Part shown: in pieces, positions 37,738-64,000 of the stretch
How the letters are laid out: every line of letters begins with the position of its first letter
Position numbering within the stretch: the first letter of the stretch is position 1
Assembly: GCA_009837445.1 (NCBI GenBank)
Contig: VXTM01000009.1
Location: forward strand, 62,001 to 126,000
From: Acidimicrobiaceae bacterium
GTDB lineage: Bacteria; Actinomycetota; Acidimicrobiia; Acidimicrobiales; Aldehydirespiratoraceae
Direction: 5' to 3'
Length of the DNA stretch: 64,000 bases
Position numbers and translations under genes: made by a program
The notes under the pieces: generated by a model
What the model saw: only the letters and a program-made list of their open reading frames with translations
Databases searched by the model: none
What the model was told of the DNA's origin: nothing

Positions 37738-40590
37738 GTGCCTTCCGCTGACGCCTCCGACCCGTCGTCGAAGTATCTCGATCCAGAGCAGCGCGCTCGG
37801 ATGGAGATCGATGAGCAGCTCGCGGCGTGCGGGTGGGTGGTGCAGGACTACAAGCACGCTGCGGTGGCCACCGCGCAGGGCGTGGCGGTGCGGGAGGTGC
37901 CGACCGGCGCCGGCCCGGCCGACTACGTGCTGTTCGTAGATCGCCAGGCCGTCGGGGTGATCGAGGCCAAGAAGGCGGGCAGCACTCTCACCGGTGTGGA
38001 GCCCCAGACCCGCAAGTACCAGGTCTCCTCTCCCGACTGGTTGCCCGCGTTCGAGGTGGACGGGGCGCTGCCGTTCGGTTACGAGTCAACCGGCGCCGAG
38101 ACCCGCTTCACTTGTGGGCTCGACCCGGTTCCGGCCAGCCGGCGGGTGTTCACGTTCCACCGCCCCGAGGCGCTGGCCCACTGGGTTGACGAGCATGTGC
38201 GGCTGGGCGACTACAGCACTCTGCGAGCTGGCCTGCCACTGCTGCCTGAACTGGAACCCGAAGCGCCCGGGCTGTGGCCGGCGCAGGCCGAGGCGATCCG
38301 CAACCTGGAGGAGTCGCTGCGGGAGAACCGTCCTCGGGCACTCATCCAGATGGCCACCGGAGCGGGCAAGACGTTCACCGCCGCCAACGTCTGCTACCGG
38401 CTGGTGCGCCATGCCGGTGCCCGGCGGATCCTGTTCCTGGTGGACCGGGCCAACCTCGGCCGCCAGGCGGTCCGGGAGTTCGAGGACTTCACCGTTCCCG
38501 ACGACCGCCGCAAGTTCACCGAGTTGTACAACGTCCGCCGGCTCGCGACCTCACGGCTGGATATAGCCGACGAGACGGCCACCAAGGTGCATGTGTCCAC
38601 CATTCAGCGGCTGTATTCGATCCTGCGGGGCGACGACGACTACGACGAGAGCCTCGACGAGCAGACCGGTTTCGAGACAGCGCCCGACCAGCCGGTCGAA
38701 GTGTCCTACAACCCGAAGGTGCCGATCGAGTTCTACGACTTGATCATCATCGACGAGTGCCACCGCTCGATCTACGGGGTGTGGCGCCAGGTGCTGGAGT
38801 ACTTCGACGCCTTCCTGGTGGGGCTCACGGCCACGCCGGGCATCCAGACCTTCGCCTTCTTCGATCAGAACATGGTGATGGAGTACGGCCACGAGCAGGC
38901 GGTGGCCGACCGGGTGAACGTGGACTTCGACGTGTTCCGCATCCGCACCGAGCTCACCGAGTCCGGCGGCACGGTCCCGGCCGACTTCGTGACCGAGTTC
39001 CGCGACCGCGAGACCCGCCGACTCCGCCTGGAGAAGGTCGACGAGGACATCGACTACAACGCGGCCGAACTGGACCGCAAGGTGGTGGCCCTCGACCAGA
39101 TCCGCACCGTCGTGCGCACCCTGCGCGAGTCGCTGCCGGCGATCTTCGATGACCGTGAGCGCCGCGACGACGGCCTGCTCAAGCACATTCCGAAGACGTT
39201 GATCTTCGCCAAGGACGACAGCCACGCCGACGACATCGTCCAGGTCGTGCGCCAGGAGTTCGGATTGAGCAACGAGGGCGCGGTGAAGATCACCTACAAG
39301 TCCGGCGACTCAGGCAACAAGCCCGAGGATCTGCTCCAGTCGTTCCGCACCAACTACCCGACACGCATCGCAGTGACGGTGGACATGATCGCCACCGGCA
39401 CCGACGTGAAGCCCATCGAGTGCGTGGTGTTCATGCGCATGGTGCGCAGCCGCAACTTCTTCGAGCAGATGAAGGGCCGGGGCGTGCGGGTGATCGACAA
39501 CAACGACCTGCGGGCCGTAACGCCCGACGCCAAGGTCAAGGACCGTTTCGTGATCGTGGACGCGGTAGGCGTGACCGACGCCGGCTTGCATGACACGGTG
39601 CCGCTTGAGCGCAAGAAGGGCGTCAGCTTCGACCGGCTGCTGAACCAGATCGGCGTCGGCTCCACGGATGAGTCGGTCGTGTCGTCGGTGGCGTCGCGCC
39701 TGGCCCGCCTGAACCGCCGAATCACTGCGGAGGACCGGGCCGCCGTCGAGAAGGTCGCCGGGATCGGACTGGACGACTTGGTCCGCCAGATCACCGATGC
39801 ACTGGATCCCGACCGCCAACACACCGAGGCCGTAGCCGAGACCGGAACCGACGACCCCACCCCCGAACAGGTGAAGGCCACTGCCGAGCGCCTGATCACA
39901 GAGGCAGTGCAGCCAATCGCCGGCAACGCCCAACTACGGGAGAAGCTCATCGACATCCGCCGCAGCTACGAGCAGGTGATGGACACCGCGTCGAAGGACA
40001 AGGTGATCTCCGGCGAATACTCGAAAGACGCTGCCGACCGAGCCCGAGCTCAGACCGAGTCGTTCCGCCAGTTCATCGAGGACCACAAGGACGAGATCAC
40101 GGCCCTCCAGGTCCTCTACAGCCAGCCCTACGGAGGCGGGCTCACCTACACCGACATCAGGGAACTAGCCGAAGCCATAGGCCGACCACCTCACCGCTGG
40201 ACCCCGGAGGCGCTGTGGCAGACCTACGAGACCCTCGACGCCTCCAAGGTCAGAGGCTCAGGCCACCGAGTCAGTACCGACCTAGTCAGCCTCGTCCGCC
40301 ACACCCTCGGCCACACCGACGAACTCATCGCCTACCCCGACCTAGTCAACGAACGCTTCGAGGCATGGCTCCACCAGCAACAGCAAGCCCTGGGCCGCCA
40401 CTTCACCGACGAACAGACCGCCTACCTCCACCTCATCAAGGAACACATCGCCGCCAGCCTCACCGTCGCCCCGGCAGACCTCCAGAACCCACCTTTCAGC
40501 ACCCACGGCGGCCTCGGCCGTGCCCGCCAACTCTTCGGCAACGACCTGAACCCCCTCCTCGAGGAACTAACCCTCGCCCTAGCGGCATGA
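37738..40590 (+). CDS. hsdR: Type I restriction enzyme, HsdR subunit
   Basis: A 950-residue motor/nuclease subunit. The N-terminal PD-(D/E)xK nuclease has Asp62 and the EAK pair Glu76/Lys78 (GVIEAKKAG). The SF2 motor has Walker A ATGAGKT (206-212), DECH (339-342), motif III LTATP and motif VI QMKGRGVRV. The C-terminal region would bind the methylase core. The start is GTG 37738. The stop overlaps the hsdS start by 4 bp. It cleaves unmodified DNA after ATP-driven translocation. Confidence 0.95.
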   Translation: MPSADASDPSSKYLDPEQRARMEIDEQLAACGWVVQDYKHAAVATAQGVAVREVPTGAGPADYVLFVDRQAVGVIEAKKAGSTLTGVEPQTRKYQVSSPDWLPAFEVDGALPFGYESTGAETRFTCGLDPVPASRRVFTFHRPEALAHWVDEHVRLGDYSTLRAGLPLLPELEPEAPGLWPAQAEAIRNLEESLRENRPRALIQMATGAGKTFTAANVCYRLVRHAGARRILFLVDRANLGRQAVREFEDFTVPDDRRKFTELYNVRRLATSRLDIADETATKVHVSTIQRLYSILRGDDDYDESLDEQTGFETAPDQPVEVSYNPKVPIEFYDLIIIDECHRSIYGVWRQVLEYFDAFLVGLTATPGIQTFAFFDQNMVMEYGHEQAVADRVNVDFDVFRIRTELTESGGTVPADFVTEFRDRETRRLRLEKVDEDIDYNAAELDRKVVALDQIRTVVRTLRESLPAIFDDRERRDDGLLKHIPKTLIFAKDDSHADDIVQVVRQEFGLSNEGAVKITYKSGDSGNKPEDLLQSFRTNYPTRIAVTVDMIATGTDVKPIECVVFMRMVRSRNFFEQMKGRGVRVIDNNDLRAVTPDAKVKDRFVIVDAVGVTDAGLHDTVPLERKKGVSFDRLLNQIGVGSTDESVVSSVASRLARLNRRITAEDRAAVEKVAGIGLDDLVRQITDALDPDRQHTEAVAETGTDDPTPEQVKATAERLITEAVQPIAGNAQLREKLIDIRRSYEQVMDTASKDKVISGEYSKDAADRARAQTESFRQFIEDHKDEITALQVLYSQPYGGGLTYTDIRELAEAIGRPPHRWTPEALWQTYETLDASKVRGSGHRVSTDLVSLVRHTLGHTDELIAYPDLVNERFEAWLHQQQQALGRHFTDEQTAYLHLIKEHIAASLTVAPADLQNPPFSTHGGLGRARQLFGNDLNPLLEELTLALAA

Positions 40591-41897
40591 CGGAGGAGCT
40601 TCCCCCGAATTGGGCACGAACTTCGCTCGGCAGCATCTGCGTCCCGGTTCGCAAGACGGATCCTCGCGCTTGCCCCGATCTGGAGTTCGAATACATAGAC
40701 ATCGGTGGCGTCTCGCCAGGTAGCGGGCGCATACAAGCGACCAAGTCTCTCAAGGGTTCTGATGCGCCTTCGCGGGCACGACAAGTGGTGCATGCGGGGG
40801 ACATAGTCCTGAGCACTGTTCGGACCTATCAGCGCAAGACCGCAATCGTCTCGGCTGAACTACACGGCGCAATCGCCTCGACAGGCTTCTCTGTGCTCCG
40901 CCCTGCTCCTGGAGTCGACTCCCGATTCGTGCTCTATCGACTCCTCAGCCAGGAATTCGTGAGTCAACTGAGTCCGCAGCAGACAGGTACTAGTTACCCC
41001 GCTGTTCGAGACAAGGATGTTCGGGCGATGAGCATCTCGATAGCTCCTAGCGCCGAGCAGGAGCGGATCGTCGCTGCTATCGAGGAACACTTCTCCCGCC
41101 TCGATGCCGCGGACGACTCCATGGCAGCGCCTTCACTCCGCGCGGCGCAGCTCTTGGAGAGCGCGCTTCAGGCTGAACTCAGGACCGCCAAGCTGCACAG
41201 TCAGCCGCTGAGCGACTTCTTGACAGAGCAGTTGGCCAACGGACGCTCCGTGCCGACCGCCGCGGAGTACGGACTCCCGGTGCTGCGTCTTACCTGCCTC
41301 AAGAACGGATGGGTCGACACCTCAGAGAGCAAACAGGGGAACTTCGGTGAGATCGATCACAGGCGATACCAAGTGGAGTCGGGTGATTTCCTGATATCAC
41401 GAGGTAATGGATCACTCCACCTTGTGGGCATCGGCGGGCTCGTTCCCCATGGCGCCCATTCCGTTGCGTATCCGGACACATTGATCCGCGCAAGAGTGGA
41501 CCCATCACGGCTGCGCCCCGAGTTCCTGAGTCTGATCTGGAATAGCCGGATCATTAGACGACAGCTGGAGTCGCAGGCAAGAACGACCGCAGGCATCTAC
41601 AAGGTCAACCAGTCCATGATCGGCAACGTTCTCCTGCCCGCTCCATCTCCAGGCGTCCAGGATCGCATCACCCGGAGACTCGAGTTGGTGCGACAGACCA
41701 TCCTCCAACTAGACGCGGGAGTCGATCGATATCACCTGCGGTCGGCATCCCTGCGGCGGTCGATCCTCTCAACTGCGTTCTCAGGGCGGTTGGTGCCTCA
41801 GAATCCAGACGACGAGCCCGCATCCGTCCTACTGAAACGCATCGCAGCCTCTCAGACGACCGAACCGAAGCGACGAGGGCCAAGACATGACCAGTGA
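40587..41897 (+). CDS. hsdS: Type I restriction enzyme, specificity subunit HsdS
   Basis: A 436-residue specificity subunit with two target-recognition halves. Each ends in the conserved helical spacer: AEQERIVAAIEEHFSRLDAA near residue 155 and QDRITRRLELVRQTILQLDAG near 370. The C-terminal SILSTAFSGRLVPQNPDDEPA is typical. The recognition sequence cannot be inferred. It overlaps hsdR by 4 bp and hsdM by 11 bp. The order R-S-M is unusual; M-S-R or R-M-S is more familiar. Confidence 0.95.
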   Translation: MTEELPPNWARTSLGSICVPVRKTDPRACPDLEFEYIDIGGVSPGSGRIQATKSLKGSDAPSRARQVVHAGDIVLSTVRTYQRKTAIVSAELHGAIASTGFSVLRPAPGVDSRFVLYRLLSQEFVSQLSPQQTGTSYPAVRDKDVRAMSISIAPSAEQERIVAAIEEHFSRLDAADDSMAAPSLRAAQLLESALQAELRTAKLHSQPLSDFLTEQLANGRSVPTAAEYGLPVLRLTCLKNGWVDTSESKQGNFGEIDHRRYQVESGDFLISRGNGSLHLVGIGGLVPHGAHSVAYPDTLIRARVDPSRLRPEFLSLIWNSRIIRRQLESQARTTAGIYKVNQSMIGNVLLPAPSPGVQDRITRRLELVRQTILQLDAGVDRYHLRSASLRRSILSTAFSGRLVPQNPDDEPASVLLKRIAASQTTEPKRRGPRHDQ

Positions 41898-43344
41898 CCC
41901 GAGGACGCTTGTGCCGAGACTGTGGGAATACTGCGACAGGCTGCGCGACGACGGCCTGTCCTACGGCGACTACATCGAGCAGCTCACCTATCTGCTGTTC
42001 CTCAAGATGGCCGACGAGCAGCACGAACTGCTGGGCGGCCAGCGGGTCGTGCCCATCGAATACGACTGGCAGTCGCTGCTCGCCCGGTCGGGGGCCGAAC
42101 TCGAAGCCCACTACAGCAAGACCCTCTCGGAGTTGGGCGCGGGCAACGACATGTTAGGCGTGGTCTTTCACAAGGCCCGCAATCGGATCCAGACCCCGGC
42201 CAAGCTGGAGCAGCTCATCAAGGACTTCATCGACAAGCACGAGTGGCTCAGCTACGACGCTGATGTCAAGGGCGCCGCGTATGAGGGCCTGATCGAGAAG
42301 ACCGCCCAGGAGGGTGCTCGAGGCGCGGGCCAGTACTTCACGCCGCGGGCGCTAATCTCCGCGATCGTCGATGTGATGCTGCCGGAGGCCGGAGATCGCA
42401 TCTGCGATCCGGCCTGTGGCACCGGCGGGTTCTTCTTGGGCGCCTACCGCTCAATCATCGACCGGTACACGCCGCTGGAGCGCGACCAGGTGGCCCACCT
42501 GCGCTCCGGCGCGTTCACCGGCTGGGAGATCGCCGATCTGCCGGCTCGGCTGTGCGCCATGAACCTGCTGCTGCACGGCATTGAGAGCCCCGAATCAGAC
42601 TCGCCGGTCCATGTGGACGACGCCTTGCGTTCTGATCCCGGCGAGCGCTTCGACATGGTGCTGACCAACCCGCCGTTCGGCCGGTCCTCGTCGGGCAGCT
42701 ACGAGCGGGAGGACTTCTGGGCAACCACCCGCAACAAACAACTCAACTTCGTGCAGCACGTCGTCGGCCTGCTCAAGGTCGGCGGAACCGCCGCGGTGGT
42801 GGTACCCGACAACGTGCTGTTCGAAGCCGGTGCGGGAGAAACTATCCGTCGGCGCCTGCTGCACGACTGCGAGGTCCACACCCTGCTTCGCCTTCCCACG
42901 GGCATCTTCTATGCCCAGGGAGTGAAGGCCAACGTGCTGTTCTTCCGTCGCCGTGAGGGCGCAGAGCAGGCCTGGACCCGAGAGCTATGGGTCTACGACC
43001 TGCGCACCAACAAGCACTTCACGCTGAAACAGAATCCGTTGACCAAGGCCGGCCTCGACGACTTCGTGGCCTGCTACAACCCGGCTGACCGCCACCAGCG
43101 CCAGGAGTCGGAGCGCTTCAAGCGTTACACCTACGACGAACTCATCGCCCGCGACAAGGTAAGCCTCGACCTCTTCTGGCTCCGCGACGACAGCCTGGAG
43201 GACATCGACAACCTCGCACCCCCAGCCGTCCTGGCCGCTGAGATAGCCGAAGACCTCCAATCCGCCCTAGCCGAAATCCAAGCCCTCACCGAATCCCTCT
43301 CTACCACAGGCGACGCGGCGTCAGACACGAGAGCTGTTCGGTGA
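41887..43344 (+). CDS. hsdM: Type I modification methylase HsdM
   Basis: A 485-residue N6-adenine methyltransferase. The helical N-terminus (YIEQLTYLLFLKMADE) precedes QYFTPRALISAIV, the SAM motif DPACGTGGF (174-182) and the catalytic NPPF (261-264). With HsdS it methylates the host site. The C-terminal tail (ending EIQALTESLSTTG) has a decayed copy about 3.3 kb downstream at 46534-46694. The gene ends the hsdRSM operon. Confidence 0.95.
   Translation: MTSDPRTLVPRLWEYCDRLRDDGLSYGDYIEQLTYLLFLKMADEQHELLGGQRVVPIEYDWQSLLARSGAELEAHYSKTLSELGAGNDMLGVVFHKARNRIQTPAKLEQLIKDFIDKHEWLSYDADVKGAAYEGLIEKTAQEGARGAGQYFTPRALISAIVDVMLPEAGDRICDPACGTGGFFLGAYRSIIDRYTPLERDQVAHLRSGAFTGWEIADLPARLCAMNLLLHGIESPESDSPVHVDDALRSDPGERFDMVLTNPPFGRSSSGSYEREDFWATTRNKQLNFVQHVVGLLKVGGTAAVVVPDNVLFEAGAGETIRRRLLHDCEVHTLLRLPTGIFYAQGVKANVLFFRRREGAEQAWTRELWVYDLRTNKHFTLKQNPLTKAGLDDFVACYNPADRHQRQESERFKRYTYDELIARDKVSLDLFWLRDDSLEDIDNLAPPAVLAAEIAEDLQSALAEIQALTESLSTTGDAASDTRAVR
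43277..43292 (+). repeat. 16-bp direct repeat in the hsdM 3' end (partner at 46639-46654)
   Basis: The sequence TCCAAGCCCTCACCGA is found exactly at 43277-43292 (in hsdM) and at 46639-46654 (in the hsdM remnant), in the same orientation. The copies lie within a longer diverged similarity, so they come from duplication or recombination of hsdM tails. They bracket the AT-rich DUF2971/ubiquitin-like segment. Confidence 0.7.
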
Positions 43345-43365
43345 CACCTTTGAGCGGAGAGTCCA

Positions 43366-44325
43366 TTGACAAGTAGGGATGCCGACCTTGATCGCCTCAA
43401 GAGGCTGATCGAGGCCGCGCAGCACAATTATGATCAGACTGGTGACACGTTCCGTGTCGCACAATTCATGGAGAGCTTCATCCTGCCAGCGGCAGCTGAT
43501 CTACTCCACACGATTGTCGGCCATCGTCATGTGCTAGCAAAGTCACAAGAACGCGTCGTTCACTACACGAGCGTGTCAAGCTTGTTCTCGATGTTCGCGA
43601 ATGAGAGGATGAGGTTGTATGACTCAGACAACTCTAACGACCCCGGTGAAGGCAAGTACTTTGATCAACACTCTCAATGGCTATCCGACTATAGCTGGCT
43701 TGATACCGCAACACCAATGCCAGTCTACATTGCATCATTCGTCCTTTCAGATCTGAGCGAGGGTGACCGATCATGTAGCGATGATCTTGTATACTGGCGT
43801 ACTTATGGCGACTCTGGTCGCGGATGCTCCATCGAATTCTTTTCTTCCTCACGAGATCTCCAGAAGGTCCTCTATGGTCAACATGAAGTCGAAGCCACCG
43901 CCGAGAGCCTGCGAGAATTTCTTAGTCAAGTTGACCCGTTCGTCGAGCCCTCATCACCAATAGGTGCCCGGTTGGCTGACCTGGTAGCTGAAGCATTGAA
44001 TTCAATTCGTCATCTATACAAGTCAGAAGATTATGAGTATGAGCATGAGTGTAGACTCGTGGTCCTAAAGCAGCAACAGTCCCTTGCGAACATTCACATA
44101 GACTCCGATCAAGCGCACGGCGGATTCTCAGTTAGACACTATTGCTATGATGATCGCCTGAAGCTGAGAGGCATGCTGGATGCTACAGGATCGACAATTA
44201 CGATTGGGCCTGCTGCAACGTCCCAAGAAGCCCTTGAACGAACGATGCGAGTAGCGCTCGAGAAGCTTGGCATCTATTCTGGGGCTTCTATCAAGTTCTC
44301 CCGAATATCCTATCGAAGAAACTAG
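43366..44325 (+). CDS. DUF2971-family protein
   Basis: A 319-residue protein with the DUF2971 pattern: VVHYTSVSSLFSMFANERMRL (near 64-84), then NSNDPGEGKYF, and SDDLVYWRTYGDSGRGCSIEF. DUF2971 proteins are frequent in defence islands and are often of unknown activity. The start is TTG 43366 after GAGCGGAGAG; other starts are possible. The gene is AT-richer than hsdM, and its last 35 bp overlap the 3' end of the convergent JAB-E1 gene. A role in the neighbouring defence genes is likely but unproven. Confidence 0.8.
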   Translation: MTSRDADLDRLKRLIEAAQHNYDQTGDTFRVAQFMESFILPAAADLLHTIVGHRHVLAKSQERVVHYTSVSSLFSMFANERMRLYDSDNSNDPGEGKYFDQHSQWLSDYSWLDTATPMPVYIASFVLSDLSEGDRSCSDDLVYWRTYGDSGRGCSIEFFSSSRDLQKVLYGQHEVEATAESLREFLSQVDPFVEPSSPIGARLADLVAEALNSIRHLYKSEDYEYEHECRLVVLKQQQSLANIHIDSDQAHGGFSVRHYCYDDRLKLRGMLDATGSTITIGPAATSQEALERTMRVALEKLGIYSGASIKFSRISYRRN

Positions 44326-45763
44326 TAAGCCTTGACAATAGAGTCTTGTCGGAGGGTCGCCTATCGCTAGCATCAACGGATGCTGTCAGATAGAATGGAT
44401 GTTCCAAGTCGCCCTTAGCAATGCGGTCTAGGAACGCGCAGAATGGTTCACAGCGTTCTCCATCTATGTATGTCTCACCAGTAACCAGCTGATGGGTTTG
44501 CCCATGAATCTTCTTCCACCAACTGGGAGCCAGGAGATACCGTAGCATCAGATTGACTTCCATCGAAGCAAGGCTCTGGCTAAAAGGAAAGATATTAGCA
44601 CCCGTGCTGGTGCCATCCTCAGGCAGTGCGTTAAGGTAGCTGGGATCATCGAGAGACCCGTCAAGTTCGGTCATAACCATTCCCGTGCTGTACTGTTCGC
44701 TGCATCTCATACACCGGTGATACGGTGTTACCAATTGTGTTCGCCAATGCGCCGAGAAAATACCATCTTGTAGTGGATCAAGTTGAACGGCGATTCCGCC
44801 ATCAATGACCGGAATCAGGTGAGCATTGGCTACATAATTGAGAACATCACGAGGGATCGGTCGATCGACGCAGCTGAAGATGACATCGCACTCCAAGATC
44901 GCTCGATAAGCATCTGCTTCATGTACCGATGTCGCATACGTGAGAACCTGCGGATGTGCTGCTGTGCTATGTTGCCGCATCGCTTTCGCGGCGACGTCGA
45001 CCTTGCGCTGGCCGATGTCACCGATGGTGGCATTGAGTAAGCGATCAAGATTATGCTCTTCTACTTCGTCAGGATCCACCATCGTCACTCGCTCCACGCC
45101 GAGACGCGCTATGGACTCTGCTACGGAGCTTCCGACGCTGCCTAGCCCGACGATACCAATGTGTAGCCGCGAGAGTGTTTGCTGCCCATGCAGTCCCCAT
45201 GTGTCGAATGTGCGCCTAAGTACGTTTCGACGAGGGCCAGGAGATGAAGCATATCGACCAAATTGTACTTCGTATGTTCTTGGTCCAATGATTCGCACCT
45301 TATCACACCAATAGCGCTCAAACGCTTGACCATTGTGTATCCACAAGCGAGCACTCCAATGGCCGTCACTACCAATCGTTAGCCCCAATAGCGGCTGCTC
45401 GGTCGAAGCGGCCGGATAAGCCAGAACATCGCGCTCCGCAACTACATCCGTCGGACTCATTTCCTGCCAACCGGTTCCAGGATGACTGTGCATGAACGCC
45501 AGTCCGGCGTTCATGCGACGAGCGCTTGTGATCGCCCGCGCCATGTAGTCTGGGGTGAAGCTCGTGTTTCCGTGAAGAAGCCGGTCCTCTTCCTGTGGAA
45601 TCAAAACCTCATATATTAGAGCGGTAAGGCGACTCGCTGCTGTCGATGGCCGCCACAAAGCGAAGCAAAGATCTTCCTGAGAATGTCCCACATTGAAGTG
45701 TTGAAGCAGATGCTGCTTAGAGAGACTATGAACTCCATGAGTCAGAGCAACATCGTAGTTCAT
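44291..45763 (-). CDS. JAB peptidase-E1 (ThiF/MoeB-like) fusion of a ubiquitin-like system
   Basis: A 490-residue fusion. The N-terminal JAB/MPN domain has the full zinc-protease signature: Glu52 (VLIP context), His92 and His94 (HSHPG), Ser103 and Asp106 (SPTD). From about residue 200 an E1-like adenylating fold follows, with GIVGLGSVGSS (203-213), Asp230, Asn238/Arg241 (HNLDR), Lys254 and Asp300 (SCVDRP). A CMRC pair (351/354) and Cys438/442 probably bind zinc. No obvious separate catalytic Cys follows the CxxC pair. It would process and adenylate the UBL encoded upstream. Its ATG overlaps the E2-like stop by 4 bp. It is AT-rich and probably acquired. Confidence 0.88.
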   Translation of the reverse strand: MNYDVALTHGVHSLSKQHLLQHFNVGHSQEDLCFALWRPSTAASRLTALIYEVLIPQEEDRLLHGNTSFTPDYMARAITSARRMNAGLAFMHSHPGTGWQEMSPTDVVAERDVLAYPAASTEQPLLGLTIGSDGHWSARLWIHNGQAFERYWCDKVRIIGPRTYEVQFGRYASSPGPRRNVLRRTFDTWGLHGQQTLSRLHIGIVGLGSVGSSVAESIARLGVERVTMVDPDEVEEHNLDRLLNATIGDIGQRKVDVAAKAMRQHSTAAHPQVLTYATSVHEADAYRAILECDVIFSCVDRPIPRDVLNYVANAHLIPVIDGGIAVQLDPLQDGIFSAHWRTQLVTPYHRCMRCSEQYSTGMVMTELDGSLDDPSYLNALPEDGTSTGANIFPFSQSLASMEVNLMLRYLLAPSWWKKIHGQTHQLVTGETYIDGERCEPFCAFLDRIAKGDLEHPFYLTASVDASDRRPSDKTLLSRLTSFFDRIFGRT

Positions 45764-46131
45764 ATATCAGCCCAAATGCGGCGCAGGTGTTCAGAAATGT
45801 ATGCGCGCATAGTCTTAGTAGGTATTCTATCCCAGTTGCCAGGGGGGCGACTCATAGCAACCCATGAACGACCGCTTCCATCGTGGTATTCCTGCACACT
45901 GCCTCCGCGGCCATCATGAATCGGAGGTGTAATATGGATCCAGTGGGGTGGGTACTCTGGGTATCCCTCTTCTTGGAAGCTCACTCCAACCGTTACTAAC
46001 TCACCCTTGTGAGATCCAGCTTCGATCGTATAGTTGAACGCCACTACCTGACCCTGAGCAGAACTGAAACACTCCGTCTCGTAGCCGAGATCGATTAGCT
46101 CGGCCTGCACACGGCTTACACTATCGCTCAT
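45760..46131 (-). CDS. E2-like protein of a ubiquitin-like operon, lacking canonical Cys
   Basis: A 123-residue protein. The core GVSFQEEGYPEYPPHWIHITPP (residues 49-70) matches the E2 pattern of a strand, YPxxPP and a following beta-strand. HDGSGRSW and a second Trp (residue 100) then follow, where classical E2 enzymes carry HPN and the catalytic Cys. The only cysteine is Cys21 in the N-terminal helix region. It resembles prokaryotic E2-like families from multi-ubiquitin operons. Ser89 or Ser94 lie near the expected active site. It sits between the UBL and JAB-E1 genes with 4-bp overlaps on both sides, so it is clearly part of that module. Activity without the usual Cys is inference. Confidence 0.75.
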   Translation of the reverse strand: MSDSVSRVQAELIDLGYETECFSSAQGQVVAFNYTIEAGSHKGELVTVGVSFQEEGYPEYPPHWIHITPPIHDGRGGSVQEYHDGSGRSWVAMSRPPGNWDRIPTKTMRAYISEHLRRIWADI

Positions 46132-46400
46132 ACGCGATTTCGTGAAGCTACAGGTGTCGGAGTATGCGGAATAGTGATGAAGATGCTGTCTTCCTGGAGA
46201 TCAATTTTGTCGTCGTCCTTATAGCGTCCCTTGTCACCTTCGAGATAGTACTCATCTGGTTTACCAGGGATGACGCCTGCCTTAGCCGCCATCTCTAGGA
46301 TTTGTCGTGCGGTTAGGAATTCAGATTCTGAGTCGAACTGAGTACCGTTGACCTTATAGGTGAACTTGCTATCTTTGGATTCTAGGCCTTGTTCTGCCAT
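46128..46400 (-). CDS. Ubiquitin-like (multi-ubiquitin family, single domain) protein
   Basis: A 90-residue protein with a beta-grasp-like pattern: FTYKVNGTQFDSESEFLTARQIL, then PDEYYLEGD, KDDDKIDLQEDSIFITI. This pattern is typical of prokaryotic multi-ubiquitin family domains, but only one domain is present. The C-terminus PTPVASRNRV has no Gly-Gly. ATG at 46400 is preceded by GGAG; a longer in-frame extension back to 46547 reads low-complexity sequence and was not used. Its stop overlaps the E2-like start (ATGA). It is the first gene of the operon, and the JAB peptidase could trim its C-terminus. Confidence 0.75.
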   Translation of the reverse strand: MAEQGLESKDSKFTYKVNGTQFDSESEFLTARQILEMAAKAGVIPGKPDEYYLEGDKGRYKDDDKIDLQEDSIFITIPHTPTPVASRNRV

Positions 46401-46533
46401 CTGGAGTCTCCATATGCTCGATTCTGGGTTGGTGTTGAAGTGTAGCGGTACTCTACGTCGATGGTTGGGACGCCGAGCAGAACGCAAGGTAGGCCAGCCG
46501 ACATCCACCACCACACGCCTTGAATCTCCGCCG

Positions 46534-46694
46534 ATGACCTCCGACATGGTCAGCCTCGACCCATTGTTGCTCCACTAGCAATCGGCGACCTCCTAGCCGC
46601 CGAGATGACCGATGAACTCAAGTCCATCCTGGCCGGCTTCCAAGCCCTCACCGAGTCGCTGACCGCCACCGTCGAGTGCGAGGCTGGGGGCTGA
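46534..46694 (+). pseudogene. Remnant of an hsdM 3' end
   Basis: In one frame the DNA encodes SDMVSLDPLLLH, like the hsdM segment RDKVSLDLFWL. After a frameshift a second frame encodes LLAAEMTDELKSILAGFQAL and TESLTATV, which closely parallels the hsdM tail VLAAEIAEDLQSALAEIQAL and TESLSTTG. The similarity is divergent, with an exact 16-bp core at 46639-46654. There is no start or methylase core. It is a decayed hsdM tail on the same strand as hsdM. Confidence 0.75.
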
Positions 46695-46707
46695 GGCCTG
46701 TCGTACC

Positions 46708-46727
46708 CGGTCCATATCTTTGGACCG
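46708..46727. promoter_or_regulatory. Inverted repeat upstream of the DUF5131/TcmP genes
   Basis: Arms CGGTCCA (46708-46714) and TGGACCG (46721-46727) are perfectly complementary around TATCTT, 42 bp before the GTG start of the DUF5131 gene. This could be an operator for the two-gene unit. No matching regulator lies nearby. Confidence 0.4.
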
Positions 46728-46769
46728 ATGGGTACCCTGTGGATAACTGGGTGGAGAAAGGGGGTGGTC

Positions 46770-47519
46770 GTGGCCGACCGGACCGGTATCGAGTGGACCG
46801 AGACAACTTGGAACCCCAGCACCGGCTGCGACCGCACGTCGCACGGCTGCGATAACTGCTACGCACTCACCCTCGCCAAGCGCCTCAAGGCCATGGGCAA
46901 TCCTCGGTACCAGAACGACGGTGACCCCAAGCACAGCGGCCCCGGCTTCGGCCTCACGTTGCACGAAGACCTCCTAGATCTCCCCCACCGCTGGCGAGCA
47001 CCTCGCATCGTCTTCGTGAACTCCATGAGCGACCTCTTCCATCCAGACGTGCCACTTGACTTCATCCAGCGTGTCTTCAAGGTCATGGCCGACACACCTC
47101 GCCACACCTACCAGGTCCTTACCAAGCGCTCGAAGCGCCTGGCGTCGCTGGCTAGCCAGCTGGACTGGCCCCCCAACGTCTGGATGGGCGTCAGCGTCGA
47201 GTCCAAGCGCTACGCCTTCCGCATCAATCACCTGCGCACCGTCCCGGCAGCAGTCCGCTTCGTGAGTGCCGAGCCCCTGCTAGAAGCACTTCCAGACCTC
47301 GATCTGTCGGGCATCCACTGGCTCATTGCCGGAGGCGAGAGCGGGCACAACGCCCGTCCCATGAGCGAAGGCTGGGTGCTTGATCTCCGCGACCAGTGTG
47401 CAGCAGCAGACGTCGACTTCTTCTTCAAACAATGGGGTGGCCGCACTCCCAAAGCGGGCGGTCGGGAACTAGACGGGCTGCTGTACGACAACATGCCGTC
47501 ACGGAGCAATGCCGCCTGA
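46770..47519 (+). CDS. DUF5131 family three-Cys-motif protein
   Basis: A 249-residue protein of the phage Gp37/Gp68-like, DUF5131 family. The start ADRTGIEWTETTWNPSTGC is followed by three Cys (20, 27, 30) in GCDRTSHGCDNCYA, resembling an iron-sulfur-type site. Later segments are NSMSDLFHPDVP, YQVLTKRSKRL, GVSVES and GGESGHNARP. A radical-SAM-like role has been suggested for the family. GTG at 46770 was chosen for the typical N-terminus; ATG 46728 is an alternative. It overlaps tcmP by one base (TGATG). Confidence 0.85.
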   Translation: MADRTGIEWTETTWNPSTGCDRTSHGCDNCYALTLAKRLKAMGNPRYQNDGDPKHSGPGFGLTLHEDLLDLPHRWRAPRIVFVNSMSDLFHPDVPLDFIQRVFKVMADTPRHTYQVLTKRSKRLASLASQLDWPPNVWMGVSVESKRYAFRINHLRTVPAAVRFVSAEPLLEALPDLDLSGIHWLIAGGESGHNARPMSEGWVLDLRDQCAAADVDFFFKQWGGRTPKAGGRELDGLLYDNMPSRSNAA

Positions 47520-48502
47520 TGAGTCGCTCTTGGGGATTCTGGACTCTCGGGAAGCTGCACGTACTGAGAGATTATCTTGACGCATTTACCACGGCTACCA
47601 AGTATCGAGCAGACGAGCGGATCTATCTCGACCTCTTTGCTGGCGAAACCAAGAACTTTGACAAGATCACTAAGGAAGCGACAGAGAGTTCTGCACAGAT
47701 AGCCCTATCCATCAAGGAACCGCTGTTTACGAGACTCAGGTTCTTTGAACTTGAAGGCAAGGCACAAGAACTTGAGAGGACTCTGGTACGTGCTTATCCC
47801 GACCGCGACATCAAGGTCTACGCTGGAGACTGCAACAAGAAGATCCCTTGCGCACTTAAGGAGTTACGCCATCTGTCATGGGCGCCAACGTTCGCCTTCA
47901 TAGATCCCAATAGTCTGGAAGCCAAGTGGCGGACGCTGGAAGAGCTTGCTCGATTCCGGACGGGAAACTACAAGACTGAACTGTTCCTCCTGTTCTCGCC
48001 TCAGATGTTCAGCCGCCTGCTGCCTGTCAAGGGGAAGCTGCTTAGGCCTGAGGATGAAGAAGCAATAGATGCCGTGTTCGGGATCGGTGCATGGCGAGCA
48101 GTCTACGATTCTCGCCTGAACGAGTCACTCAGTGGACACGAGGCGTACGAAGAGTACCTAAACCTAATGCGCTGGCGCCTAGAGACTGAACTTGGATACC
48201 GTTGGACGCACCCGCTGGAACTCAAGAACACACGGGGAACATCTGTGTACTTCATGATCTTCGCTACGAGCAACGACACAGGGCACAAGATCATGAGCCA
48301 TCTCTACAACTCAGCTGCTGCCCAGTTCCCGGCTATGCAGGCTGAGGCAAGAAGTAGACTTCAGCAGATTCGCGAAGAGGAATCCGGAGTCATGAGGCTG
48401 TTCGAGGACGGATCAGAACTTGGTCGGCCGGGTCAGCAACATGAAGGACTCTATGTTCACGAAGCACCAACTCGACCGTGGTTCCTCGACGATGAGTCGT
48501 AG
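47519..48502 (+). CDS. tcmP: Three-Cys-motif partner protein TcmP
   Basis: A 327-residue protein. The order FWTLGKLHVLRDYLDAFT, YLDLFAGETKN and FAFIDPNSLEAKWRTLEEL matches the TcmP family, which has a methyltransferase-like Rossmann start (LDLFAG) and is always found beside a three-Cys-motif gene. The ATG shares a base with the DUF5131 stop, so the two are translationally coupled. The function is unknown; defence is likely, given the setting. It is AT-richer than neighbours to the right. Confidence 0.85.
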   Translation: MSRSWGFWTLGKLHVLRDYLDAFTTATKYRADERIYLDLFAGETKNFDKITKEATESSAQIALSIKEPLFTRLRFFELEGKAQELERTLVRAYPDRDIKVYAGDCNKKIPCALKELRHLSWAPTFAFIDPNSLEAKWRTLEELARFRTGNYKTELFLLFSPQMFSRLLPVKGKLLRPEDEEAIDAVFGIGAWRAVYDSRLNESLSGHEAYEEYLNLMRWRLETELGYRWTHPLELKNTRGTSVYFMIFATSNDTGHKIMSHLYNSAAAQFPAMQAEARSRLQQIREEESGVMRLFEDGSELGRPGQQHEGLYVHEAPTRPWFLDDES

Positions 48503-48574
48503 CTCCCTATCACTCGCCCCGGGCCCGCCACTCCATGTCTGCCCACTTCGTACCTCCCCGTAGGCGCTAGCACG

Positions 48575-49075
48575 GTGCCCACGGAGGGCGAGCACCAGTT
48601 CGTCGGGGTGCTGCATGAGTTTGCGTCGAACTATGCGCACATCATGAACGTGGCGCTTGATGTTCCCGCGGCCGTGTCGGAGGCGTTTGGGGTGCGGGGC
48701 TATGTGCCGGTTGTGGGCACCGTAGATGGCGCGGAGCTGACCGCCACGCTGGTGCCTGTCGGTGGTGGGCGTCATCGGCTGTTTCTGAACAACTCGGTCC
48801 GCTCCGCAATCGGCAAGGGTGCAGGCGACTTGGTGGAGGTCCGGATCCGTCTCGACCGCCGCGACCGCACACCTGAGACACCGACGGAGCTGCAGGAGGC
48901 TCTGGCCGACGAGGGCGCTACCGCGGCATGGGAGGCGTTGACACCGTCGAGGCGCAAGGAGTTGCTGGTGTGGCTGGCTGATGCGAAGCGCGAGCAAACC
49001 CGCGCCGGTCGCATCAAGCGCATCGTGCAGACTGCAATCGAGGAGGGCACACCTCGACTGGAGAGCGGGAGGTGA
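48575..49075 (+). CDS. YdeI/DUF1905-type protein
   Basis: A 166-residue protein. The N-terminal DUF1905-like barrel (residues about 5-90: VRGYVPVVGTVDGAELTATLVP, then HRLFLNNSVRSAIGKGAGD) is followed by a YdeI/OmpD-associated helical motif (PSRRKELLVWLADAKREQTRAGRI). Such proteins are poorly characterised. The start is GTG 48575. The stop overlaps the next gene's GTG (GTGA), suggesting a two-gene operon. Confidence 0.85.
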   Translation: MPTEGEHQFVGVLHEFASNYAHIMNVALDVPAAVSEAFGVRGYVPVVGTVDGAELTATLVPVGGGRHRLFLNNSVRSAIGKGAGDLVEVRIRLDRRDRTPETPTELQEALADEGATAAWEALTPSRRKELLVWLADAKREQTRAGRIKRIVQTAIEEGTPRLESGR

Positions 49076-61593: not shown

Positions 61594-64000
61594 GTGACGA
61601 TCGCCTGCGTGACCACGGCCTACGGTGCGGCCGCCCACGAGGCGCTGGCGACGGCCGTGGCACGGGCCAAGGATCGCGACCCGCTCGCCCCGGTCACCGT
61701 CGTCGTGCCCAACCATTACGTGGGCCTGGCCGCCCGCCGGGCGCTGGGCCGACGCAGCCACAACGGCACTCGAGGGGTTGCCGCCGTCGCCTTCCACACC
61801 GCCTACGACCTCGCCGAGCGTCTCGGCGGGGCCGAGATGGCCGCCGAGGGGCGACGGGGCGTGACTATGACGGTCATCGCCGCCGCGGTCCGCACCGTGC
61901 TGCGGCGCGATCCCGGGCACTTCCGGGGCGTGGAGACCCATCCGGCCACCGAGCGGGCCCTCACCCGAGCCCACCGCGAGCTGTCCGAACTCGAGGGCGG
62001 GCAGCTCCGTGCGCTGGCTGCGCAGTCGCCGCGGGCTGCCGACGTGGTGAGGATCCACCAGCAGGTCGCGGCCGACCTCGAAACGCGCTTCAGCAACGAG
62101 CAGCAGCTCTCGCGGGCTGCGGCAGCGGCGGTGCGGGCCGATCCCGCCGCGGTGGCGCGCCAACTCGGACCGATGATCGTGTTCCTGCCCCAGAGGATCA
62201 CCCACAGCCAGGCCGGCCTGCTGCGTGCGGTCGGCAAGGCGACGGACACGACGATCGTCGCTGGCGCGACAGGAGCCGAGGACGCCGACGCTGTGGTGGT
62301 CGCCTCGGTTCGCAGGCTCGGTGCCGAGCTCGACGCCCCGGCACGACGAAGCGGGCAAGGCCGAGCGGGGGCCACCGTGGAGGCTCTCAGCGTGTCCGAT
62401 GCCGACGATGAAGTGCGCCACGCCGTGCGGGCTGTCGTCAACGCCGCCCGGGCCGGCACCCCCCTGGGGCGATGCGCCATCGTCTACGGCGTCGAGAGCC
62501 CCTACGTGCGCCTGATCAGCGATGCGCTCGACGCGGCCGGCATCCGACGCTGCGGCGCCGCCTCCCGAACGGTGGAGACGTCGCTGCTGGGGCGGTCGCT
62601 GCTCGAGATGCTGGCCTTGCCAGACCGCGGGTTCTCCCGGCGCGTCGTGATGGCTTGGCTGGCCAGCGCCCCGGTGAGCGTCAGACGGCCCGATACGGAC
62701 GCTGGCGCACCCGACGGTGAGGCCGGCGGCGGCGAACCGGCGGCTCGCCACCGATGGCAGGGGGTGCCGAGCGCGGCGTGGGAGCGGGAGGCCCGAGCCG
62801 CCCGGGTGGAGTCCGGGATCGAAAGCTGGAGGCGCAGGCTCACCCGGTACGCCGAGGACTGCACCGCCGAGGCCGACCATCACGCCGCCGACGAGGAGCA
62901 GGCATGGCGCGGCGACAGGCATCGGCGCAGGGCCGAGCGTTCGCTGGAGCTGCTGAGCTTCGTCGAGGAGCTCCACGCCGACTTGGATCCCCGCCCGGCG
63001 CCGCGCACCTGGGCCGAGCTGGCCGGCTGGTGCCAGAAGCTGATCCAGAAGTACCTCGGCGGGCGGCTGCGCCGGAGCTGGCCGGAGGAGGAGCGGCAGA
63101 TGGCCGAGAGGGTGGACCGCGCCGTCAGCCGTCTCGGAGACCTCGACGGCACCGACGACGAGCCCTCCGTGGCCGCCTTCGGGCGGGCGCTGAGGCTTGA
63201 GTTGGAGGGGGCTGCGCACCGCCACGGGCACCTCGGTGCAGGCGTGCTGGTCGGGCCGGTCGACCTGGCCCTAGGGGTGGAACTCGACCTGGCCGTCGTA
63301 TGCGGCATGGCCGAGGGGACCTTTCCCGCCCGCCGCAACGACGACGCTCTGCTGCCGGATCGGGAGCGGTTGGTAGCCGGCGGCGATTTGCCCGCCCGAG
63401 CCGACCGTCCCGGAGACGACCACCGGGCGCTGCTGGCGATCGTGGCCGCCGCTGGGCGGTCGCTGCTGCTGCACCCCCGCGGCGATCTCCGCCGGGCCGC
63501 GGACCGGTCGCCGAGCCGTTGGCTGACCGAGGAGGCGGGCGAGGCCCAGGAGGTGCCATCATTCGTGGCCGGGCTGCGTCGCACCGGGTTCCCGGCCCAC
63601 GCCCAGGAGTACGACACCCGGTGCGTGCTCGACTGGTACGAGGCCCGCGCCCGCACCGAGAGCCCCTGGAGCGAGCTGGCCCGGATTCCAGGTGTGCAGC
63701 GGCGTCCAGAGCTCATCCGGGGCATCGAACTGCGCCGGGCCCGCATGTCGCCGAGGCTCACCCGCTTCGACGGCAACCTGCCGGCCGGCGACCTCCGGGG
63801 GGCCGTTCTGGCGCACCCGGCGGGCGGCGAGACGACCTCCGCCTCCCGGCTGGAGATGTGGGCGGGATGTCCCCACGCCTACTTCATGCGATACGTCCTG
63901 AGGGTCGAGGCCATCGACGACGCCGACGACGACCACCGCATCAGCCCGCTGGAGCGGGGGAGCCTCGTGCACCGGATCCTCGAGCGCTGGCTGGCCGAGG
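61594..64000 (+). CDS. AddB-like/PD-(D/E)XK helicase-nuclease family protein (incomplete at right edge)
   Basis: At least 802 codons are open from GTG 61594 to the window end with no stop. The N-terminus VTIACVTTAYGAAAHEAL and the later VCGMAEGTFPARRNDDALLPD match the helicase-inactivated AddB-like subunits. No Walker A GxGKT is seen. From about residue 748 the RecB-type nuclease begins (TSASRLEMWAGCPHAYFMRYVL, then RGSLVHRILERW), with a Cys typical of its iron-sulfur site. The catalytic Asp/Glu-x-Lys part lies outside the window. It would act in double-strand break processing with an AddA-like partner. A long minus-strand open frame over it is a shadow. Confidence 0.85.
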   Translation, partial: MTIACVTTAYGAAAHEALATAVARAKDRDPLAPVTVVVPNHYVGLAARRALGRRSHNGTRGVAAVAFHTAYDLAERLGGAEMAAEGRRGVTMTVIAAAVRTVLRRDPGHFRGVETHPATERALTRAHRELSELEGGQLRALAAQSPRAADVVRIHQQVAADLETRFSNEQQLSRAAAAAVRADPAAVARQLGPMIVFLPQRITHSQAGLLRAVGKATDTTIVAGATGAEDADAVVVASVRRLGAELDAPARRSGQGRAGATVEALSVSDADDEVRHAVRAVVNAARAGTPLGRCAIVYGVESPYVRLISDALDAAGIRRCGAASRTVETSLLGRSLLEMLALPDRGFSRRVVMAWLASAPVSVRRPDTDAGAPDGEAGGGEPAARHRWQGVPSAAWEREARAARVESGIESWRRRLTRYAEDCTAEADHHAADEEQAWRGDRHRRRAERSLELLSFVEELHADLDPRPAPRTWAELAGWCQKLIQKYLGGRLRRSWPEEERQMAERVDRAVSRLGDLDGTDDEPSVAAFGRALRLELEGAAHRHGHLGAGVLVGPVDLALGVELDLAVVCGMAEGTFPARRNDDALLPDRERLVAGGDLPARADRPGDDHRALLAIVAAAGRSLLLHPRGDLRRAADRSPSRWLTEEAGEAQEVPSFVAGLRRTGFPAHAQEYDTRCVLDWYEARARTESPWSELARIPGVQRRPELIRGIELRRARMSPRLTRFDGNLPAGDLRGAVLAHPAGGETTSASRLEMWAGCPHAYFMRYVLRVEAIDDADDDHRISPLERGSLVHRILERWLAE

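Follow-up and report, generated by a model that had tools for sequence, protein, structure and literature searches.

A probable Bub-type (operon type 6e) ubiquitin-like operon with a single UBL and a possible tail variant in an Acidimicrobiaceae bacterium

Identity of the operon

The 64,000-nucleotide stretch analysed here (positions 62,001 to 126,000 of contig VXTM01000009.1; hereafter the window) belongs to the 3.9-Mb, 52-contig genome of an Acidimicrobiaceae bacterium (GCA_009837445.1) and contains a compact operon for a ubiquitin-like protein (UBL), an E2-like protein and a fusion of a JAB domain with an E1 domain (Table 1). We assign this operon with good confidence to Bub (bacterial ubiquitination-like), the operon type 6e of Iyer et al. 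2006 (PMC1779556), as a member of a sporadic actinobacterial branch located in a defence island, with a proposed tagging cycle in which the JAB domain, the E1 domain, Ser94 of the E2-like protein and again the JAB domain would act in turn. The operon itself is new, its kind is already known, and its UBL tail is a possible variant.

According to the passages of PMC1779556 on type 6e, such operons encode one to three Ubl domains, a Cys-less E2/RWD-like domain and an E1 with an N-terminal JAB domain. In some cases the E2-like domain has a gene of its own, placed between Ubl and JAB+E1; the type is sporadic and mobile, and its members include an actinobacterial one and a species that has a single Ubl; a Zn-binding protein Y, also part of the type there, was not seen at the window. 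The window trio has a Multi_ubiq-type beta-grasp UBL, within the one to three such domains of Bub, a Cys-less E2-fold protein whose gene stands alone between those for Ubl and JAB-E1, and a JAB domain with an intact JAMM motif fused N-terminally to E1/ThiF. Furthermore, structures of Citrobacter Bub are available in the PDB (9ea4, 9ea5, 9ea8, 9eae and 9eav), and intermediate relatives connect the window trio to the Citrobacter type.

The original prediction, made from the letters of the window, could match the arrangement to no characterised system and ranked it as the best candidate for an undescribed pathway. The type 6e passages of PMC1779556, together with Citrobacter BubA, BubB and BubCD in the PDB, contradict the first statement, and the second lapses because the architecture had already been published as type 6e and is now called Bub. 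The observation is sound; the novelty claim is not.

Table 1. Positions of the operon genes and neighbouring features in the window
Feature	Position	Strand	Basis or remark
bubA-like, single beta-grasp ubiquitin-like protein, 90 aa	46128-46400	minus	leave-out profile, model, weak Multi_ubiq match
bubB-like, E2/UBC-fold protein, 123 aa	45760-46131	minus	profile to Citrobacter BubB, model
bubCD-like, N-terminal JAB/JAMM and ThiF/E1 adenylation domain fusion, 490 aa	44291-45763	minus	PDB match, motifs
DUF2971 gene	43366-44325	plus	convergent, overlaps JAB-E1 gene end; weak PADLOC match PDC-S31
Low-GC inserted block, bub operon and convergent DUF2971 gene	43299-46590		absent in G407, G408
Left copy of 70-bp direct repeat, within hsdM 3' end	43229-43298	plus	77% to right copy
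Right repeat copy, hsdM 3' end remnant beyond insert	46591-46660	plus	HsdM C-terminus readable in one frame
DUF5131 gene and three-Cys-motif partner (TcmP) gene	46728-48502		PADLOC candidate models PDC-M41B/M30B, PDC-M41A

Conservation of the trio

A profile hidden Markov model search for the trio, as the original prediction had proposed, found conserved co-occurrence: all three parts were detected at 30 of 30 loci scanned. Each locus was recruited through an E1 or E2-like match, and one is the window. L004 and L041 come from a single contig, L032 is nearly a copy of L030, and the UBL and E2 profiles had themselves been refined by iteration on the 30 loci. L012, which has stops and showed no E2 or UBL in its 3.8 kb, lies outside the set, as does L014, which was checked separately and holds all three parts. 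With L032 and L041 omitted as near copies, 28 E2-like rows were obtained; the 24-row E2-like alignment further leaves out L025, L030, L033 and L038. The UBL table has 26 rows (the fused L030 and L033 being kept separate), 15 of which were aligned, and the JAB-E1 alignment holds 21 of 28 rows, L030 included.

The closest copy is L004, from the metagenome-assembled genome (MAG) ‘Acidimicrobiaceae bacterium isolate SB0675_bin_25’, with a JAB-E1 91% identical to that of the window. This MAG and the same-genus genome G402 carry the same genes and are counted as one genome (the sister). Profiles trained without the window and the sister recovered the UBL at 1e-10 (24 rows), the E2-like protein at 2.9e-15 (26 rows) and JAB-E1 at 1.7e-128 (26 rows), and in each case the single match among 832 window open reading frames (ORFs) of at least 40 aa was the expected operon gene. 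The three minus-strand genes predicted to overlap by 4 bp at both junctions do so exactly, in coordinates and as ATGA overlaps (46128-46131 for UBL/E2-like, 45760-45763 for E2-like/JAB-E1). Between the window and the sister MAG, the ratios of replacement to synonymous change (dN/dS) were 0.146 (UBL), 0.095 (E2-like) and 0.094 (JAB-E1). Synonymous changes thus lie far above replacement changes in all three genes, which identifies them as constrained protein-coding genes under purifying selection. Promoter-like sites at the operon equalled the shuffled mean, and terminator-like sites lay about one standard deviation above it.

The JAB-E1 protein

In the PDB, the best sequence match of JAB-E1 alone was Citrobacter BubCD (E 7.9e-22), with an alignment of residues 7-330 that covers the JAB domain and much of E1; the PDB score of the JAB-E1 alignment to BubCD is not independent, as that alignment contains L030. 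The JAMM motif had originally been read as Glu52, His92, His94, Ser103 and Asp106. The last four residues were upheld (H92, H94 and D106 in 28 of 28 rows, S103 in 26), and D106 is consistent with the Asp mutated in the crystallised Citrobacter BubCD (D104A). Glu52 is ruled out as the JAMM glutamate: a count by eye at position 52 gives Glu in 11 of the 28 rows, whereas E30, the true Glu, is present in all 28. The JAMM residues are likewise invariant in the 21-row alignment. The adenylation motifs recognised earlier also stand, with G206, G211, D230, N238, R241, K254 and D300 invariant in the 21 rows and present in 27 or 28 of 28 in the wider set. At E 0.01, Pfam ThiF matched 21/21 of the aligned rows and Prok-JAB 10/21, the window not being among the latter.

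Among the E1 cysteines, C298 is present in 25 of the 28 rows, C351 and C354 in 22 each and C442 in 23, none being invariant. C351, C354 and C442 look like part of a zinc site. At locus L040 (G150), the JAB-E1 gene is cut to 324 aa, and a transposase-like ORF, recognised by eye, starts 30 bases after it.

The adenylation part also bears on another reading, in which the operon would be a Bil-type, type 6d or CBASS (cyclic-oligonucleotide-based antiphage signalling system) Cap2-type system. PADLOC E1-E2 models match the ThiF part at 2.9e-20, and type 6d, in the passages of PMC1779556, likewise has a single stand-alone Ubl. Bil (BilABCD) shares the Ubl/E1/E2/JAB logic, and JAB and ThiF domains occur in CBASS Cap2/Cap3 as well. 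However, the PADLOC match is confined to the adenylation part (residues 195-372), an E2-E1 fusion is absent, and no CD-NTase was found among the ten proteins scanned. Furthermore, the window JAB is fused to E1 and its E2-like protein lacks the conserved Cys present in BilB, according to the sections of PMC11354881 drawn on here. Those sections and the ones taken from PMC12355090 give Bil and CBASS a Cys-dependent E2, another E1 layout and a JAB unfused from E1. The window trio shows neither the Bil combination (catalytic-Cys E2, two-domain Ubl, unfused JAB; PMC11354881), nor that of type 6d in the same passages as above (stand-alone Ubl with C-terminal Gly, Cys E2, separate helical protein), nor that of CBASS Cap2/Cap3 (E2-E1 fusion, separate JAB, CD-NTase). 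This assignment is hardly credible.

The E2-like protein and the invariant serine

A profile of 24 E2-like proteins containing no Citrobacter-type row matched Citrobacter BubB at 1e-19. The AlphaFold2 model of the E2-like protein (pLDDT 75, pTM 0.72) gave Citrobacter BubB (9eae_C, E 0.021) as its best Foldseek match, followed mostly by eukaryotic E2s, none below 0.001. This model and that of the UBL (pLDDT 74, pTM 0.60) were each built from two sequences and are of moderate confidence. The best PDB match of the UBL model was Citrobacter BubA (9ea8_B, E 0.0019, none below 0.001). The structure prediction that had been suggested for both small proteins therefore bears out the beta-grasp and E2 folds originally assigned to them, and the best fold matches of the predicted models are the Bub proteins themselves. 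Pfam Prok-E2_E was found at E 0.01 in 9 of the 24 aligned rows, the window not among them.

Ser94 is the sole invariant column of the 24-row alignment. It is Ser in 28/28 rows, followed by Arg in 25, within a W-x-x-[M/H/W]-S-R motif. The 28 rows share no conserved Cys column. In most rows a Trp follows Ser94 at a distance of 5-9 residues. Classical E2s carry a Trp at a similar distance after the catalytic Cys. Because of this resemblance in Trp spacing, a Cys-to-Ser exchange at the active site would be the natural reading of the alignment.

Alternatively, the E2-like protein may have no catalytic activity and serve as an RWD-like adaptor for UBL binding, with E1 passing the UBL from the adenylate straight to targets. 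The passages of PMC1779556 on type 6e call its Cys-less E2 catalytically inactive, a Cys column is conserved in none of the rows, and, to judge from the title of 9eae, a BubCD-BubB complex has been solved. Against this, Ser94 is invariant across rows that are 10-31% identical to the window protein (the 93% identical sister excepted), which suggests chemistry and not only a binding surface. We regard the adaptor as a serious possibility, though one that we do not favour over a catalytic Ser94.

The UBL and its C-terminal tail

The 15-row UBL profile matched bacterial multi-ubiquitin structures in the PDB (9cd2 at 1.1e-16, then 9d59, 9d5b and 8u38, to 6.5e-12), and the Multi_ubiq-type character of the window UBL is further supported by the leave-out profile and the BubA fold match given above. 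At E 0.01, Pfam Multi_ubiq was found in 10 of the 15 aligned rows, the window UBL not among them.

The window UBL reaches ...PVA(85) and continues with a five-residue extension, SRNRV, which is also present in the sister. In L030, the relative on an IncHI2 plasmid of E. coli, Ubl and E2 form one ORF with three Ubl-like stretches and a Gly at residue 229. This Gly229 carries the number at which the PDB construct of Citrobacter BubA (155-229) ends, if a shared numbering is assumed, which fits maturation by JAB. At the position matching Gly229 or the next, counted from a conserved Phe/Tyr/Leu, 16 rows including the window have Ala, Ser, Thr or Glu. These V-[ASTE]-tail rows form one side of a branch of the E1 tree with support 99/97 (27 rows, labelled by tail with the archaeal row apart, L040 left out, and rows longer than 520 aa reduced to the last 500). 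The E1 active-site motif CVDRPW is exact in 11/16 V-[ASTE]-tail rows and 0/10 Gly-tail rows, the window having CVDRPI; this association is confounded by descent, because the V-[ASTE] tail arises only once on the E1 tree.

From these tails we consider it possible, though doubtful, that one actinobacterial Bub clade uses a non-Gly reactive C-terminus, a relay without catalytic Cys and an invariant-Ser E2 acceptor, the window UBL being a precursor from which JAB would cut SRNRV. Besides the confounding by descent, several observations speak against this reading. Three of the 16 rows (L020, L021 and L022) have GG immediately before the final VA, so that trimming to Gly-Gly is conceivable there, and other Multi_ubiq loci show tails such as GDDNS without a terminal Gly, which indicates that members of the wider family do not always end in Gly. 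In the UBLs of L027, L034 and L035, residues are present after the Gly. A Bub-like trio on an archaeal plasmid of Halorussus (L029) has a UBL ending in GSGRS.

Weighing the assignment to Bub

Several results weigh against placing the operon in Bub. The window E2-like protein alone had no match in Pfam, PADLOC, NCBIfam or the PDB. The UBL profile matched Citrobacter BubA by sequence at E 0.86 only. Pfam Multi_ubiq (PF14452) scored the window UBL at E 0.023 and 15.3 bits, against a cut-off of 24.5 bits, and a Multi_ubiq search of genomes gave no match in the window's own genome. Profiles built from the other branch (seven E2 or five UBL rows) missed the window proteins; a seven-row E1 profile of this kind matched the window JAB-E1 at 7e-56. 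DUF6527, a zinc protein that is a frequent, not universal, Bub accessory, was not seen beside the operon, where the next gene encodes DUF2971. A DNA-damage regulator, an optional Bub neighbour, was not found among the ten proteins scanned (37738-49075). In addition, the acceptor role of Ser94 is a prediction drawn from sequence conservation, and C298, present in most E1 rows, could still be catalytic.

In comparison with Citrobacter Bub, the window shares the Ubl, the Cys-less E2-like protein with a Ser-Arg motif and the N-terminal JAB fused to E1. Taking L030 as the stand-in for Citrobacter, the differences are a single stand-alone Ubl ending in PVA and SRNRV instead of the fused ORF with Gly229, no DUF6527 at the window, which in L030 follows the operon, and a CxxC pair in the window E1 that L030 lacks. 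The IncHI2 conjugative plasmids bearing L030 and its near copy in Serratia (L032) both carry a Bub operon in which a single ORF encodes Ubl and E2.

A case for a conjugation pathway that is separate from Bub and truly undescribed could be made from the 23% identity between the JAB-E1 proteins of the window and L030, the non-Gly UBL tail and the unseen DUF6527. Nevertheless, gene order, fusion, Cys-less E2 and Ser motif are all shared with Bub, intermediate relatives exist and type 6e dates from 2006, which makes such a pathway very improbable. An undescribed architecture is ruled out by the type 6e passages of PMC1779556 and the BubCD and BubB matches.

Proposed tagging cycle

The observed domains, motifs, conservation and co-occurrence are consistent with a cycle of which we infer every reaction. 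The JAB domain would first trim SRNRV from the UBL, exposing a carboxylate at or near Ala85. The fused E1 domain, whose motifs are in place, would then adenylate this carboxylate. In the weakest step, Ser94 of the E2-like protein would take over the UBL in an oxyester linkage and hand it on to an amine or hydroxyl of a target; this Ser94 relay is proposed because no fully conserved cysteine is found in either enzyme. Finally, the JAB domain may take the UBL off again, reversing the modification. The role of the cycle is likely stress- or phage-triggered reversible protein tagging.

In the sections of PMC13373217 (EMBO J 2026) used here, which cite Gong et al. 2025 and Ye et al. 2026, 544 Bub operons are identified. 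DNA-damage regulators lie by 219 (CapW or CapH+CapP) and 59 (CapK+CapS) of the 544, and these sections state that phage protection by Bub operons was not demonstrated.

Distribution in genomes and plasmids

A sample of 396 genomes spread evenly over the phylum, with the window's own among them, was searched with the JAB-E1 query (E 1e-20) and with the E2-like profile (E 0.001). Each search gave 11 places in 10 genomes, and nine genomes were common to both; 7 of the 10 non-window places of the profile search were already rows in the profile. In the two genomes found by one query only, the G182 locus has all three parts and the 3.8-kb G035 locus a broken E1 only. With the E2-like query, four of 61 close relatives matched. 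Besides the own genome and the sister, these are two genomes matching at 7e-6 and 1.3e-5, in which the trio is present as well. Within the same genus, the operon was present in 1 of 15 other genomes searched, and a genome contig search returned the sister MAG as its sole match. As few of these genomes, close relatives and same-genus genomes carry it, the operon is sporadic in Actinomycetota.

JAB-E1 matched 146 plasmid records, and 17 of the 17 plasmid stretches fetched hold the trio by profile; tblastn of the window E2-like protein against plasmids gave nothing at E 1e-3. The carriers include plasmids of Rhodococcus, Mycobacteroides, Clavibacter, Nocardioides, Rhizobium, Synechocystis, Pontibacter and the archaeon Halorussus, with proteobacterial, cyanobacterial and haloarchaeal plasmids among them. 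The actinobacterial plasmid trios L019-L026 (Rhodococcus, Mycobacteroides and others) share with the window the trio, the clade and a Ubl ending in VA, and L019, L023, L024 and L026 also its single Ubl. A gene annotated as HigA or ImmA/IrrE lies upstream in 7 of these 8, whereas none was seen beside the window operon. DUF6527 is annotated in L028, L030, L031 and L033 and in none of L019-L026, by annotation only and with incomplete PLSDB tables.

At two further loci (L118 and L119), Multi_ubiq proteins stand beside a distant E1-like ORF, and no E2-like gene was detected in the 3.2 kb of each; these are possibly another related operon type.

Among viral contigs, 43 loci match JAB-E1 within residues 153-327 only, the JAB part being unmatched. 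A phage origin of the operon was considered and rejected, as a search of 50,697 phage records yielded nothing at E 1e-5.

Insertion at hsdM and surrounding genes

The GC fraction is 0.517 for the operon and 0.501 for the DUF2971 gene, compared with 0.681 for the window. In the same-genus genomes G407 and G408 (L115 and L116), the hsdM 3' end joins sequence equivalent to 46591-46593 directly, which shows that a block of about 3.3 kb is absent there. The block seems to have entered by exchange at the hsdM end, site-specific and homologous recombination being alike possible. The DUF2971 gene has a dN/dS of 0.197 against the sister. As a general Bub partner it was rejected, because phmmer matched only the window and the sister (counted twice) among the ORFs of the 30 loci.

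The defence-island setting noted in the original prediction is supported, with type I restriction-modification genes on one side of the operon and the DUF5131/TcmP candidate-defence pair on the other. In the hsdS region (40604-41775), one 63-bp DNA match to the sister MAG was found between flanks of 84% and 92%, as if the specificity subunit had been swapped.

Significance

Bub is one of the few complete ubiquitin-like pathways known in bacteria. The compact three-gene version with a single UBL described here is a simple test piece for it. If true, the non-glycine tail and the serine-only relay would show how much departure from the Gly/Cys rule ubiquitin chemistry tolerates.

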